A stretch of DNA of 64,000 nt from Candidatus Kryptobacter tengchongensis. Lineage in GTDB: Bacteria > Bacteroidota > Ignavibacteria > Kryptoniales > Kryptoniaceae. Shown in pieces: positions 38,896 to 43,555 of this stretch. The stretch is from positions 248,001 to 312,000 of the forward strand of contig FAON01000012.1 of NCBI GenBank assembly GCA_001485605.1, read 5' to 3'. The number at the start of each line of letters is the position of its first letter. Positions within the stretch are counted from its first letter, which is position 1. The notes beneath the pieces are model-generated. The model saw only the letters and a list, made by a program, of their open reading frames with translations. It had not been told where the DNA came from and ran no database searches. The position numbers and the translations under genes were made by a program.

Positions 38896-40254
38896 ATGCA
38901 GGATAACTATAGGAAATATCTTGAGACAGCGAAGAAAATTTTTGAGGAAAACAAAACTTTAACTCTTGTAAGTCGGGGTAAGGATGGGAAAGTATGGGCA
39001 GGTAAAGTTTATTTCGGTGAGGAGGATGGGTATATTTATGTAGCGCTTGAAAGAGGGAAAAATTATAACAACATCATTGAAAATCCGAATGTGTTTTTTG
39101 TGATAGAGCATGGCGTTCCCGATAGATTTATTCAAGGCGAGGGTGTCGCTGAGGTGCTTGGGGATATAACTGAAAGACCAGAAAGGAGTGTAATTTTTAG
39201 GAAGGCAATTGAATTGGTTGTATATGCGAAGAAAATTCCCGGCGTTACGCTTTTTAGAATAAGACCGACTAAACTTTACATTTCTGATTTCACGGAGGAA
39301 TGGAAACCAAGGATTGAAATTGATGTTACGGATGAGGTGTTAAAAGTTTTTCAAACTAAACTTAAGACAAAATATAAGTTTTTTAAAGTTGCGTTTAGAG
39401 CTATAAGACCTTTTGCATTTCCAGCAACCATTGCTCCCGTTTTGCTCGGAACTTTTATAGCTCCCCATGTTTCAATCCCAATGTTTCTTCTAACCTTCTT
39501 TGGTCTTATACTTGCTCATTCTGCTGTAAATGTTTTGAGCGATTATTTTGATTATATTCGTGGTGCTGATACATGGCGTGTGCTTGGCTCAAGCCGTGTC
39601 CTCGTTGATGGCTTGATGAATCCCAAGCATCATCTATTTTTTGGTATATCCTTGCTTTTGTTATCACTTATTATCGGATTTTATTTCGTTTTCGCAATTG
39701 GTAATAAAATTTTGTATTTCATAATTCCAGGTTTGATTCTTGGAATTTTTTATACTGCTCCACCTGTCGGGTTTAAATATAGAGCGCTTGGCGACCTTGC
39801 TGTTTTTCTTGCGTTCGGACCTATAATGACACTCGGAGTTTATTATATTCAGGCAAAGGAGATCTCCTGGCTTCCCGTTGTCTTATCAATCCCGATTGGT
39901 TTATTAACAACAGCAATTTTGCATGGAAATAATTTTAGAGATATAAAAGAAGATCTTGAAGCGGGATATAAAACACTAGCTGGAATTTTGGGAATCAAAG
40001 CATCAAGTTATTACTATACTGGGCTTGTTGTCCTTGCTTATTTGTTGATGGCTTATTTTATCATTAAAGGGTATCTCCCTGTTGCTTCGGTAATTTCATT
40101 TATAACTTTGCCAATCGCTTTGAAAAACATCAAAATTTCTTTCAACCAAGCACTTGTTAATTTTACATTTCTTGATCTGTTAACTGCTAAACTTCAACTT
40201 TATTTCTCATCCTTGTTAATCACAGGCGTAATTTTGGGAAAATTTTTGATTTAA
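38896..40254 (+). CDS. PNPOx-like domain fused to UbiA-type prenyltransferase
   Basis: Residues 1-130 form a pyridoxamine-oxidase-like split barrel (ENKTLTLVSRGKDGKVWAG, NPNVFFVIEHG, LFRIRPTKLYISDF). Residues about 165-452 are a UbiA-family membrane prenyltransferase with eight or nine membrane segments, the first Asp motif NVLSDYFDYIRGAD and the second DIKEDLEAG. The prenyltransferase resembles MenA (1,4-dihydroxy-2-naphthoate prenyltransferase). A role in menaquinone or another prenylated product is likely. The fused flavin/F420/haem-type domain is unusual. It is followed 28 bases later by a CDP-alcohol phosphatidyltransferase gene. Confidence 0.85.
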   Translation: MQDNYRKYLETAKKIFEENKTLTLVSRGKDGKVWAGKVYFGEEDGYIYVALERGKNYNNIIENPNVFFVIEHGVPDRFIQGEGVAEVLGDITERPERSVIFRKAIELVVYAKKIPGVTLFRIRPTKLYISDFTEEWKPRIEIDVTDEVLKVFQTKLKTKYKFFKVAFRAIRPFAFPATIAPVLLGTFIAPHVSIPMFLLTFFGLILAHSAVNVLSDYFDYIRGADTWRVLGSSRVLVDGLMNPKHHLFFGISLLLLSLIIGFYFVFAIGNKILYFIIPGLILGIFYTAPPVGFKYRALGDLAVFLAFGPIMTLGVYYIQAKEISWLPVVLSIPIGLLTTAILHGNNFRDIKEDLEAGYKTLAGILGIKASSYYYTGLVVLAYLLMAYFIIKGYLPVASVISFITLPIALKNIKISFNQALVNFTFLDLLTAKLQLYFSSLLITGVILGKFLI

Positions 40255-40282: not shown

Positions 40283-40816
40283 ATGAAAATTACACTTGGT
40301 TTAAAGCTTGCAGCTGATATTTTGACAACTTTAAGATTTTTAATAGGATTTTACATAGTGAGGTTTTCATATTTTGAACCTCAGGATGGTGTGCCCTCGG
40401 CTTCGCTTTTGCTGTGGATTGCATGGGTGACAGATTTGCTTGATGGACCAATTTCACGGCTTGATCCAAGGAAAATTCAAACTTGGATTGGAAGACATGA
40501 TTTAACTGCTGATGTTATGGTTTCGCTTGGATGTTGGCTCTTTTTAGTCTTTTCAAATTTGATCAACCCTTTGATTGGCTTTGGTTATATCTTGTTGGGC
40601 GCGTTTCTCCTTTGGTATTTCAAATCTGAATATTTAGCTTGGGCTTTGCAAGCACTGCCTTATGGATTGATGATTTTAACCGCATTGAAATATGCGTTTG
40701 TCTATGGAATATTGCTTATCGCATGGATCATAATTGTGGTCATCGTGACATGGCCCAGGTTTCCGAAATATACACTGCCAGAATTTTTAAGAGGAATGAA
40801 AGCGTTGTTTAAATGA
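40283..40816 (+). CDS. CDP-alcohol phosphatidyltransferase family protein
   Basis: The 177-residue membrane protein has about five hydrophobic segments and a variant of the family motif, D-x2-DG-x2-(A)R-x-G-x-D-x3-D: here DLLDGPISR, then GRHDLTAD. Ser replaces Ala before Arg and the spacing to Gly is longer than usual. The family makes phospholipids such as phosphatidylglycerophosphate or phosphatidylinositol-type lipids. Its gene's last 8 bases overlap the end of the convergent lutC. Confidence 0.75.
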   Translation: MKITLGLKLAADILTTLRFLIGFYIVRFSYFEPQDGVPSASLLLWIAWVTDLLDGPISRLDPRKIQTWIGRHDLTADVMVSLGCWLFLVFSNLINPLIGFGYILLGAFLLWYFKSEYLAWALQALPYGLMILTALKYAFVYGILLIAWIIIVVIVTWPRFPKYTLPEFLRGMKALFK

Positions 40817-41420
40817 GAAGTAGATAAATTTTTTGGGGTCCATGAACCCCTTGAACGATCACCTTCTCAATATCAGCTGTTCTGCTTGGTCCTGTGATTA
40901 AAAGAATTGAATCAAAGTCTCCACCAACCTGTGCAAAAAGTTCCTCAAAAGTTGGGCATATTTTGTTCTCTTGTGCAATTACAATGTGTATCCTTGGCAA
41001 AAGCAAACTTGATTTAAATCTTTTTTCATTATGGATGAAAACTATCGTTCCAGTTTCAGCTACTAAAAAATCACATCCAGTAATTGATACATCAACCTCA
41101 CTGAGATGCTTTTCCGAATGTGGTTGGGTTATTATCTGATCAGCCTGTAAGCTTTTTATGATATCATCTATTCCCCGTTCAAAGCTTTCTGCGAAAATCT
41201 TCCTCGCATTTTCAGAATAAATTATCTTTGATAGATCATCGTAAATTTTTTCACGCGTCGTTTTTATGAAAACTCCACCGGCTCTTTCAAACTCAAATTT
41301 AAATTTTTTCACGAGATCTTTTTTATCAGCGGTTTCACCAACTTTTATCTCGGGAAGCTGTGTTTTCCCTTTTTGAAATTGTTTTAGAAAATGAATTATA
41401 TGCTCTCTTGATTTTTCCAT
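40809..41420 (-). CDS. lutC: LutC-like LUD-domain protein
   Basis: The 203-residue protein is a LUD domain (also YkgG): SITGCDFLVAETGTIVFIHNEKR and LPRIHIVIAQENKICPTFEELFAQVGG, ending with GPSRTADIEKVIVQGVHGP. LutC helps LutA and LutB oxidise L-lactate to pyruvate. It is third in a minus-strand A-B-C order and overlaps lutB by 25 bases. Confidence 0.9.
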   Translation of the reverse strand: MEKSREHIIHFLKQFQKGKTQLPEIKVGETADKKDLVKKFKFEFERAGGVFIKTTREKIYDDLSKIIYSENARKIFAESFERGIDDIIKSLQADQIITQPHSEKHLSEVDVSITGCDFLVAETGTIVFIHNEKRFKSSLLLPRIHIVIAQENKICPTFEELFAQVGGDFDSILLITGPSRTADIEKVIVQGVHGPQKIYLLLI

Positions 41421-42781
41421 ATTTCCTTAAATGATTTTGGTGCAAGTTCTGGAAAAACTCTTCCATTTGACCAATTTTTAAATTTGGGCTTTATCCCGAG
41501 CTTGCGTATATATCTTAAAAGTTTTGAGCCAAATTCATAAAGTTTATGACTTCTCATTCCGATAAACCAAAGCTTAAAGATAAGTTTTTCAATCCACGGT
41601 GAAAAACCCGATTCAACCGCTCTATGCCTGAGCCAAAGCAAAAGGTGATGAATTTCTATCTTAACTGGGCAAATCTCATAACATTTGCCACATAATGACG
41701 AAGCAAATGGTAAAATGTATGAATTGTTAAGTTTAAGTTGCGCTGGTGTTATCACTGAGCCAATCGGACCAGGATATATTGAACCATAAGGATGACCTCC
41801 AACTCTTTGATAAACTGGGCAAGCAAGCATGCAAGCGCCACATTTAATGCAATAAAGCGCCTGTTTTAGTTTCTCATACCTCAATAAATCACTTCTACCG
41901 TTGTCAAGCAATATAACATAAACTTCCTCAGGTGAATCAAGTTTATTTTTTCTGGGTGCATTTATAATTGAGACATAACTTGTGAATCTCTGAGCGGTTG
42001 CACTTCTTCCAAGAATTTTGAAGAAAACTGTCAAATCAATAAGCCTTGGGATTATCTTCTCTATCCCAGCAATTGCGATATGAACTTTTGGGAGTGTTGT
42101 GCTTAAGCCCGCGTTCCCTTCGTTTTCAACTATTACAATTGAACCTGTTTCAGCAACGAGGAAATTTGCTCCTGATATACCAAGATCGGCGTTTAAAAAC
42201 TTTTTCCTTAAAAATTTCCTTGCAATTTTTGTTAATTCCTCTGGCTCATTTGTGAAATCAACCCCAAGCTTATCTGTAAAAAGTTTACCTATTTCATCCC
42301 TTGATTTGTGCATCGCTGGTGCTGTTATATGCGAAGGCATTTCATCAGCAAGCTGAACTATAAACTCCCCAAGGTCTGTTTCAATCGTTTCAATCCCGTT
42401 TGCTTCAAGAAATTCTCTTAATCCTATCTCTTCTGTTACCATTGATTTTGATTTAACGCATAACTTTGCATTTATTTTTTTAGCTATCTCAACGACATAA
42501 GTCCTCGCTTCATCTGCATCTTTAGCCCATAGAACCTTAATCCCGTTTTCAGTTGCTTTAGTTTCAAACATTTCAAGATAATAAGCGAGGTTTTCAATTG
42601 CGTGTTTTTTTATATCATGAGCTTTCTGTCGCAGTTCTTCCCAATTGGGTAGTTCTGAAACAACTTCAGCCCTTTTTGAAAGCGTATGTGAAATTGCCTT
42701 GGTTAGATTTTTTCTCAAATTTTCGTTTGCAAGGGCTTTTAATGCATTCTCTTTGAATTTTGAAGGCGTATAATTTAACAT
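41396..42781 (-). CDS. lutB: LutB iron-sulfur protein for lactate oxidation
   Basis: The 461-residue protein has an N-terminal LUD domain (GANFLVAETGSIVIVENEGN) and two ferredoxin-like 4Fe-4S motifs, CIKCGACMLACP and CGKCYEICPVKI, each giving four cysteines. The arrangement is that of LutB, the electron-transfer subunit. It lies 15 bases after lutA. Confidence 0.93.
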   Translation of the reverse strand: MLNYTPSKFKENALKALANENLRKNLTKAISHTLSKRAEVVSELPNWEELRQKAHDIKKHAIENLAYYLEMFETKATENGIKVLWAKDADEARTYVVEIAKKINAKLCVKSKSMVTEEIGLREFLEANGIETIETDLGEFIVQLADEMPSHITAPAMHKSRDEIGKLFTDKLGVDFTNEPEELTKIARKFLRKKFLNADLGISGANFLVAETGSIVIVENEGNAGLSTTLPKVHIAIAGIEKIIPRLIDLTVFFKILGRSATAQRFTSYVSIINAPRKNKLDSPEEVYVILLDNGRSDLLRYEKLKQALYCIKCGACMLACPVYQRVGGHPYGSIYPGPIGSVITPAQLKLNNSYILPFASSLCGKCYEICPVKIEIHHLLLWLRHRAVESGFSPWIEKLIFKLWFIGMRSHKLYEFGSKLLRYIRKLGIKPKFKNWSNGRVFPELAPKSFKEIWKNQESI

Positions 42782-42796
42782 ATTTCAGAAAATTTG

Positions 42797-43501
42797 TTAA
42801 AAATTTGCCAGAATTTGTGCAATGTGAATTGTTTTTATATTGATCCCGTGTTTTTTTGCATAGCCATCAATTTGCATCAAACAGCTTTGATCTGTTGATG
42901 TTACAAAATCTGCTCCAGAATTTAGAATGTAATTAACCTTATGCTTTGTCATATCAACCGAAATCTCTGGAAATTTCACCGAGAAAGTTCCCCCGAATCC
43001 GCAACAGTCTTCTGAGTTTACCATTTCAATAAGTTTTAATTTTTTAACATTTTTTAAGAGGATTTTTGGTTCGGTTTTTAGCCCAAGCTCTCTCAAAGCA
43101 TGGCATGAATCGTGATATGTTACCGTGTAATCAAACTCAGCTCCTGTTGAATCAATGTTCATTATATTTACAAGGAATTCTGTTAATTCAAAAAATTTTT
43201 TTGTTATGATTGCAATATCATCCTTGTCTATAAGTTCAGGATAAAAAATTCGGATCATACTTACACAGGAACCAGATGGTGAAACGATGTGGTCAAACTT
43301 TGAAAAAATCTTGAGAAATTTTTCAGCGAGGACTTTTGCTTCTTTTCGGTATCCCGTATTAAAGGCGGGTTGTCCACAGCAGGTTTGCTCAATTGGATAA
43401 TCAAATTTTATCCCAAATTTCTTTAAAATTTTGACCACTGCGAGACCAACTTCAGGATAAAACTGATCAATGTAGCATGGGATGAACAGTCCAATCTTCA
43501 T
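42797..43501 (-). CDS. lutA: LutA CCG-domain subunit of lactate oxidation
   Basis: From the ATG at 43501 the protein has 234 residues and two CCG cysteine-rich domains: FIPCYIDQFYPEVG, EQTCCGQPAFN, and SCHALRELG with EDCCGFGGTFS. These bind iron-sulfur centres in LutA and heterodisulfide-reductase-like proteins. A frame extending to 43555 would begin in the -35 box of the promoter, so 43501 is preferred. First gene of lutABC. Confidence 0.92.
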   Translation of the reverse strand: MKIGLFIPCYIDQFYPEVGLAVVKILKKFGIKFDYPIEQTCCGQPAFNTGYRKEAKVLAEKFLKIFSKFDHIVSPSGSCVSMIRIFYPELIDKDDIAIITKKFFELTEFLVNIMNIDSTGAEFDYTVTYHDSCHALRELGLKTEPKILLKNVKKLKLIEMVNSEDCCGFGGTFSVKFPEISVDMTKHKVNYILNSGADFVTSTDQSCLMQIDGYAKKHGINIKTIHIAQILANF

Positions 43502-43526
43502 CTCATTGATGTTTTTACTTTTTTCT

Positions 43527-43555
43527 AAAATAAAAATACTCGTGTTTATAATCAA
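43527..43555 (-). promoter_or_regulatory. Promoter of lutABC
   Basis: On the minus strand TTGATT (43555-43550) and TATTTT (43532-43527) are separated by 17 bases. The leader would be about 20 bases to the ATG at 43501. Confidence 0.5.

Follow-up and report, generated by a model that had tools for sequence, protein, structure and literature searches.

We analysed a window of 64,000 nucleotides, the whole stretch of Candidatus Kryptobacter tengchongensis DNA under study, and found an open reading frame that joins a PNPOx-type split barrel to an intact UbiA prenyltransferase. The fusion is real, conserved and recurrent. The explanation that we favour, and hold tentatively, is that the UbiA half is a UBIAD1-type prenyltransferase whose acceptor is a reduced naphthohydroquinone, and that a cytosolic barrel supplies or holds the reduced ring. 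Predicted folds, intact motifs, UBIAD1-type residues, constraint on the barrel and the linkage between barrel and UbiA back this explanation.

A split barrel fused to a UbiA prenyltransferase

The ORF (38,896–40,254, forward strand) was open over 452 codons, encodes 452 amino acids and has full-length homologues. Its split barrel spans residues 1–144 (38,896–39,327) and is followed by a linker (residues 145–165; 39,328–39,390), partly helical in the secondary structure of the AlphaFold2 model, and by the UbiA domain (residues 166–452; 39,391–40,251). Pfam UbiA (PF01040) matched residues 179–409 with an E-value of 2.6e-36 and 125.6 bits, against a cut-off of 34.2; this match, a helical fold and two Asp-rich motifs place the ORF in the UbiA prenyltransferase superfamily. 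PNPOx_N matched residues 10–128 with an E-value of 1e-5 and 26.3 bits, slightly below the Pfam gathering score of 28.1. Other fusions scored 24.8 (L100) and 19.9 bits (L010) or gave no PNPOx_N match at E 0.01 (L013), and unfused relatives of the barrel exceeded the gathering score (L051, 31.5 bits; L106, 29.1 bits). Because the PNPOx_N match is marginal, the assignment of the N-terminal domain rests on structure. The AlphaFold2 model of the full fusion (8 sequences; pLDDT 77.4, pTM 0.68), of moderate quality and given without an inter-domain confidence, showed a small beta barrel ahead of a helical domain. The barrel modelled alone (34 sequences; pLDDT 88.1, pTM 0.84) was predicted to be a split barrel, and its 50 best Foldseek matches, with E-values of 2e-8 to 2e-6, were PNPOx-like, GSP26 and HugZ-type barrels. 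These results confirmed what the first-pass annotation had proposed, namely that a PNPOx-type split barrel precedes an intact UbiA enzyme with both Asp motifs.

We then looked for the same domain pair elsewhere, a check suggested by that annotation. The full-length fusion was present in 5 of 296 genomes of the phylum and, as an open frame of more than 440 amino acids, in 14 of the 391 class genomes (one, L105, truncated by a contig end), with six in f1 (same genus), four in f8 and four in f61. Two more fusion genomes in f28, outside the class, gave 16 distinct genomes in four families, and three genomes carried the two parts as adjacent genes. One f1 genome, 71% complete (G380), had no fusion in the class sample. 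The nearest named relatives were those of Candidatus Kryptonia, with 82–84% identity to the fusion (recorded as Candidatus Kryptonia, Chrysopegis kryptomonas and Kryptonium thompsonii). All 16 fusions grouped in a single clade (support 100/99) of a tree built from 53 UbiA sequences, and within this clade those of f28 were nested beside f8 and f61. One scan of genome contigs matched close relatives alone, and the plasmids searched gave no full-length match. The occurrence in 16 genomes of four families rules out a fusion by chance or misassembly.

Signature residues of the prenyltransferase half

Both Asp motifs of the UbiA half were intact. The first lies with H208 in residues 208–225 (39,517–39,570; H-x3-N-x2-S-D-Y-x-D-x5-D) and comprises N212, D216-x2-D219 and D225; the second lies with H343 in residues 343–358 (39,922–39,969; H-G-N-N-x-R-D-x3-D-x4-Y) and comprises D349-x3-D353. 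The motif Asp residues were invariant in the eight aligned fusions and present in 16/16. At residue 215 the fusion has Ser, where the family consensus given for the first motif, NDxxDxxxD, has Asn (PMC4106721). A further segment, K294-Y-R-A-L-G-D300 (39,775–39,795), corresponds in the alignment to UBIAD1 K181-Y182 (residue numbers obtained by counting). The top fold match of the UbiA half was UBIAD1 (8djk), with a Z of 26.8 over 268 residues, followed by a match at Z 21.3, and the fusion profile, searched at E 0.001, hit no PDB sequence other than UBIAD1 (E 6.2e-42, 147 bits).

The first-pass annotation had called this half MenA-like. In its favour, TIGR00751 menA exceeded its cut-off in the window's fusion (107.5 against 102.15 bits) and also in L010 and L013, and further menA models ranked high, with the finer PRK06080 menA models all under their cut-offs for the window's fusion. 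TIGR01475 and the MqnP models gave no match to the fusion at E 1. We compared the fusions with the MenA of 14 MenD-positive genomes; at 20 positions, including one gap, all the fusions agreed with one another and MenA differed. Positions 208, 343 and 358, close to the motifs, were picked from this comparison and followed, with 294 added. The results showed H208, K294, H343 and Y358 in 16/16 fusions; UBIAD1 has H/K/H/I at these positions in a HMMER alignment of one UBIAD1 sequence. The MenA of the MenD-positive genomes (f4, f12, f31) had Q208, A/G294, V/I343 and K358 in 14/14. As these 14 had defined positions 208, 343 and 358, the independent test was a set of seven MenA controls from a plasmid collection, labelled as six phyla, one of which sits between menB and menC in Thermomicrobium. 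All seven had Q208, A/G294, no His at 343, and K/R358. They were picked for spread from 20 listed of 43 plasmid records, and include an unannotated frame (L153, Aeromonas) and one with a doubtful label (L151, labelled Pseudomonas, which adjoins a sporulation gene). The MenA residues Q208, A/G294 and K/R358 thus occurred in 0/16 fusions against 21/21 controls. With H/K/H at 208, 294 and 343, a signature defined within the same analysis and with one UBIAD1 sequence, and with UBIAD1 as the closest solved fold, the prenyltransferase half is better read as UBIAD1-type than as a classical MenA.

Unfused relatives in MenD-negative genomes had H208 and K294 in 11/11 and H343 in 9/11 (Ala in L024, Asn in L023). 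Four second-copy UbiA of f38 were of another kind, with H208 but N294, I343 and K358. Two f8 genomes (G043, G247) carried the fusion, an unfused H-type copy and a Q-type UbiA (L082, L086) without a MenD match. As a separate observation, three UbiA-like genes lie close together in f38 (L051 715–4126; L052–L054), and the third kind (e.g. L051 3146–4126), which has no Asp motif residues in the alignment, looks catalytically dead.

These residues bear on a different explanation, in which the fusion is an ordinary menaquinone prenyltransferase (MenA- or MqnP-like) acting on DHNA or its futalosine counterpart, and the barrel, a flavin or haem domain, is a redox sensor or helps to stabilise a dimer. 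The four followed residues are UBIAD1-type and not MenA-type, which argues against it. DHNA as the acceptor is nevertheless compatible with TIGR00751 menA passing its cut-off. In addition, the UBIAD1 paper cites K181 as a site for prenyl diphosphate (PMC4398444); the signature is thereby less informative on the acceptor and may report on the donor as well.

Quinone pathways of the host and its relatives

We judged the presence of a pathway by the marker families MenD, MenB and MqnA/D alone. MenD exceeded its cut-off in 0/16 and MenB in 0/15 genomes tested; four genomes (G310, G390, G597, G399) were left out of the MenD and Mqn tests, and f61 was also left out of the Mqn test. The MenD test works in this phylum, as 218 of 296 genomes were positive over the cut-off. 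A weak MenD-like match in the window's genome overlaps what we take to be acetolactate synthase genes. MqnA/MqnD (PF02621) was strong in 4/4 Kryptonia and 2/2 f28 genomes.

The window's genome has four UbiA genes besides the fusion. By NCBIfam, two were over their cut-offs as haem O synthase (TIGR01473) and decaprenyl-phosphate phosphoribosyltransferase. A third, on contig C9, was MqnP-like (TIGR01475, 300 bits; MqnP-specific models under their cut-offs). The fourth (L003 1378–2286; G000 contig C16) was of geranylgeranylglycerol-phosphate type, with 223.9 bits, below the cut-off of 296; on its own account, this gene hints at archaeal-type ether-lipid chemistry in Kryptobacter. The search for a separate menA, which the first-pass annotation had recommended, therefore found no second MenA among these four genes, all of which are of other kinds. 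For the MenA-like label this means that the TIGR00751 match stands, while the MenA residues, MenB and MenD are missing at the thresholds used and Mqn genes and an MqnP-like UbiA are present. The missing MenB (15/15) and MenD (16/16) and the separate MqnP-like enzyme also count against an ordinary menaquinone prenyltransferase, which we regard as possible though doubtful.

Haem-copper oxidase subunit I was found in 24/24 genomes tested, whether Mqn-positive or not. Eight genomes (G043, G271, G180, G133, G272, G125, G079, G280) matched neither PF02621 at E 0.001 nor MenD above its cut-off; these eight have a haem-copper oxidase and a MenA/UBIAD1-like UbiA. PF02621 was below its cut-off in G247, G101 and G196 (22–25 bits), and weak but over it in G192 and G160 (31.6 and 35.6 bits). 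Such genomes may depend on a scavenged precursor, on a divergent pathway or on a different quinone of their own making. Labelled menadione was reported to be converted to MKn in human gut cultures, that is, prenylated at the level of a community (PMC7928036). Many lineages seemingly devoid of quinone pathways were reported in a survey published in 2026 and covering 26,264 genomes, which adds that other quinones may await discovery (PMC13386864).

Fold and candidate cofactor of the barrel

By its predicted model, the barrel has the split-barrel fold of PNPOx-like proteins. The best fold-comparison Z was 17.6, over 142 residues. The haem binders At3g03890 and MSMEG_6519 matched at Z 17.4–17.6; flavin-fold proteins matched about as well, at Z 17.5 (Pden_1323) and 16.9 (2iab), and F420 binders somewhat lower, at about 14, with ranks 1–5 of the comparison tied. 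Structures of flavin, F420 and haem type, the kinds named in the first-pass annotation, thus all match. Some high-ranking proteins of this fold are regulators or non-enzymes (GluTR-binding protein, CREG), which would favour the ordinary menaquinone prenyltransferase with a sensing or stabilising barrel.

We aligned 15 fused and 19 unfused barrel sequences, the unfused ones being 23–28% identical to the window's barrel. Twelve positions were invariant in all 34: G28, W34, Y48, G54, N59, N63, F78, Q80, K103, P115, W136 and P138. Among the conserved segments are a loop and helix at residues 52–64, ERGKNYNNIIENP (39,049–39,087), with G54, N59 and N63 invariant and E52 in at least 90% of the sequences; the strand F78-x-Q80 (39,127–39,135); and W136-x-P138 (39,301–39,309), close to the end of the barrel. 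Residues 52–64 probably correspond to the site at which the phosphate of the cofactor is bound in proteins of the PNPOx fold; the FMN-phosphate loop of known proteins looks just partly conserved here. Haem was considered, since HugZ-, HutZ- and HOZ-type proteins score high. HugZ/HutZ-type haem proteins have a conserved axial His. No His or Cys was invariant in the 34 fused and unfused barrels; haem is therefore not favoured, and this also weakens haem sensing by the barrel of an ordinary MenA. The barrel may bind a redox cofactor, of which flavin is the likeliest candidate.

Proposed mechanism

In the mechanism that we favour, the C-terminal half would join a polyprenyl diphosphate to an aromatic hydroquinone in the membrane. 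The acceptor would most likely be a naphthohydroquinone, perhaps lacking the 2-carboxylate of DHNA (menadiol-like). The barrel would sit on the cytosolic face, onto which the active site opens, and would keep the acceptor ring as the hydroquinone by means of a redox cofactor, most likely flavin, coupling the two halves. UbiA Asp motifs are placed where TM2 ends on the cytoplasmic side of the membrane (PMC4106721), and a domain that precedes TM1 should therefore be on that side too. UBIAD1 formed no MK-4 without DTT in the experiments cited, from which their authors conclude that menadione needs reduction before prenylation; K181A and Y182A had markedly lower activity, and K181 is cited there as binding Mg2+/isoprenyl diphosphate (PMC4398444). 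A cytosolic redox barrel beside an acceptor site that requires a hydroquinone would be the simplest fit, provided that the predicted fold carries redox activity. In the window's genome, the fusion would be an extra enzyme, for salvage or side-chain remodelling, beside the futalosine pathway and the MqnP-like enzyme.

The first-pass annotation had suggested that the prenylated product is reduced or sensed by the extra domain. In its redox form, the barrel would reduce or oxidise the prenylated quinone, or relay electrons to the membrane pool from a donor in the cytosol, and a redox-protein fold ahead of a membrane enzyme expected to make lipid quinone-like products agrees with this. We consider it unlikely: with a haem-copper oxidase in 24/24 genomes, respiratory chains would already reduce the pool, and a reductase for the product would be less needed than one for the acceptor. 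Given that UBIAD1 is reported as inactive on menadione without DTT (PMC4398444), the suggestion is better put as reduction of the acceptor.

A bolder extension of the favoured mechanism is that the module marks a way, so far undescribed, for bacteria to obtain a respiratory quinone, in which a non-carboxylated naphthohydroquinone (or another ring), either synthesised or taken up, is reduced and prenylated in one step. Eight genomes of f8, f17, f38 and f50 (G043, G247, G271, G133, G272, G125, G079, G280) have both parts and a haem-copper oxidase, with neither MenD nor MqnA/D over the cut-off. In Kryptonia and f28, the same module stands beside the futalosine pathway. We regard this extension as distinctly unlikely.

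Conservation of the barrel and linkage with UbiA

Degeneration of the N-terminal domain in all homologues had been named in the first-pass annotation as the outcome that would speak against it. The results showed the reverse: when eight fusions were compared in 28 pairs, the barrel had the higher identity in 27 and the UbiA half in one (L006/L008; barrel 91.4%, UbiA half 91.6%). The dN/dS of the barrel between Kryptonia genomes was 0.019–0.067, with synonymous distances close to saturation in some pairs, and it was lower than that of the C-terminal half in all five pairs where both could be computed. These values indicate that the barrel is under strong purifying selection.

The barrel was detected in 11 of 296 phylum genomes (barrel profile, E 1e-6), all 11 of which also have an H208/K294/H343 UbiA, and in 0/14 genomes whose sampled MenA is Q-type. 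In two f38 genomes (G133, G079) and one of f50 (G280), a separate barrel gene encoding 146–176 amino acids lies directly upstream of UbiA on the same strand; for L012, the start was reset to a downstream ATG, leaving off 24 residues. In G272 and G125 (f38) and in G271 (f17), the barrel lay elsewhere. It was absent from five genomes with an H208 UbiA (G180, G192, G160, G101, G196), two of those UbiA lacking H343. A stand-alone barrel gene was found in 26 of 40 barrel-bearing class genomes (12 of f17 and 14 of f15; one, G430, is a fragment), and 16 stand-alone loci (L106–L121) gave no UbiA match. The fusion or pairing of barrel and UbiA is thus recurrent and not universal. In f15, the stand-alone barrel (L106–L109, L113, L117–L119) adjoins genes that we take to be aminotransferase-like and/or nadB-like, hinting at a separate use.

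The stand-alone copies, together with the Pfam score under the gathering threshold, would suit a functionless relic that merely rides on the prenyltransferase. This is improbable in view of a barrel more conserved than the catalytic half, its low dN/dS, the 12 residues invariant over 34 fused and unfused copies and the three adjacent-gene pairs.

Relation to known systems

The closest known enzyme is human UBIAD1 (8djk), a menadione:GGPP prenyltransferase, which shares the fold over 268 residues and has H, K-Y and H at 208, 294–295 and 343. Unlike the fusion, it has no fused split barrel and carries Ile in place of Y358; the redox motif proposed for it in the cited work is a CxxC and not a barrel (PMC4398444). 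Bacterial MenA (1,4-dihydroxy-2-naphthoate polyprenyltransferase) resembles the fusion in its UbiA family, in the spacing of the first Asp motif and in TIGR00751, but differs at the residues that all 21 controls share, has no barrel, and acts after MenD and MenB, neither of which was over the cut-off in the fusion genomes tested. MqnP, the UbiA enzyme of the futalosine pathway, is of the same family, and an MqnP-like enzyme is a separate gene in the same genome. On the barrel side, 3ec6, Rv2991, Pden_1323 and 2iab (PNPOx-like, GSP26, FDOR) and the haem-binding At3g03890, MSMEG_6519, HugZ and HutZ have the fold in common with the fusion. These known structures were solved without a UbiA half and are 9–23% identical to the barrel, whereas the barrel of the fusion is joined to a membrane enzyme.

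The literature that we searched, which lay outside most subscription journals and all preprints, held no report of a barrel–UbiA pair or of a bacterial UBIAD1-type enzyme with such a domain. The prenyltransferase half is of a known kind, and its combination with the barrel is new as far as this search shows. If our favoured reading is true, one protein couples acceptor reduction to quinone prenylation in bacteria, a need reported for UBIAD1, and the fusion offers a bacterial, probably heat-stable UBIAD1 relative for study. It would also give a gene handle on haem-copper-oxidase lineages that have no known menaquinone-pathway marker over the cut-off.

Gene neighbourhood

Homogentisate as the acceptor, leading to a plastoquinone- or tocopherol-like product, was suggested by 4-hydroxyphenylpyruvate dioxygenase (HPPD) over its cut-off in 22/27 genomes and lying some 4 kb away from the f8 fusion, and was dropped as highly improbable, since HPPD was not over the cut-off in any of the four Kryptonia genomes, the window's own included, and since in 6/15 other loci HPPD lies within 7 kb of genes that we take to be HmgA- or fumarylacetoacetase-like, suggesting tyrosine catabolism.

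The fusion is followed by a CDP-alcohol phosphatidyltransferase-like gene of 177 amino acids (40,283–40,816, forward strand), as the first-pass annotation had noted. Its PF01066 score was 20.9 bits, under the cut-off of 22, and 29.6 bits were obtained for the gene after the fusion in the Kryptonia relative L007. By eye, such a gene was downstream of the fusion in 6/6 f1 loci of the class sample, while none was seen after the fusion in the f8, f61 and f28 loci read, so the observation holds for f1 and does not extend to the other families. In 2/2 f28 genomes, the fusion is followed within 20 bases by what we presume to be an aroC-like (chorismate-synthase-like) gene (L010 2861–4069; L011 273–1481). 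An Rce1-like (CAAX-type) protease gene follows the fusion in 4/4 f61 loci (by eye; Pfam on L100). As no neighbour was common to all four fusion families, neighbours were rejected as general clues to function.

Two further observations concern the surroundings. An Rce1-like gene (L016 2461–3045, G180; Pfam) also precedes an unfused UbiA, so that such a gene lies beside UbiA in two families (L100–L104 except L101, of f61, and L016). In the window itself, the reverse strand at 40,809–43,555 carries genes for LUD-domain and iron-sulfur proteins that look like a LutABC cluster for lactate oxidation, of which the first LUD gene matched PF02589 with 98.8 bits and the remaining genes were assigned by appearance; LUD/iron-sulfur genes also adjoin the fusion in L006–L008.
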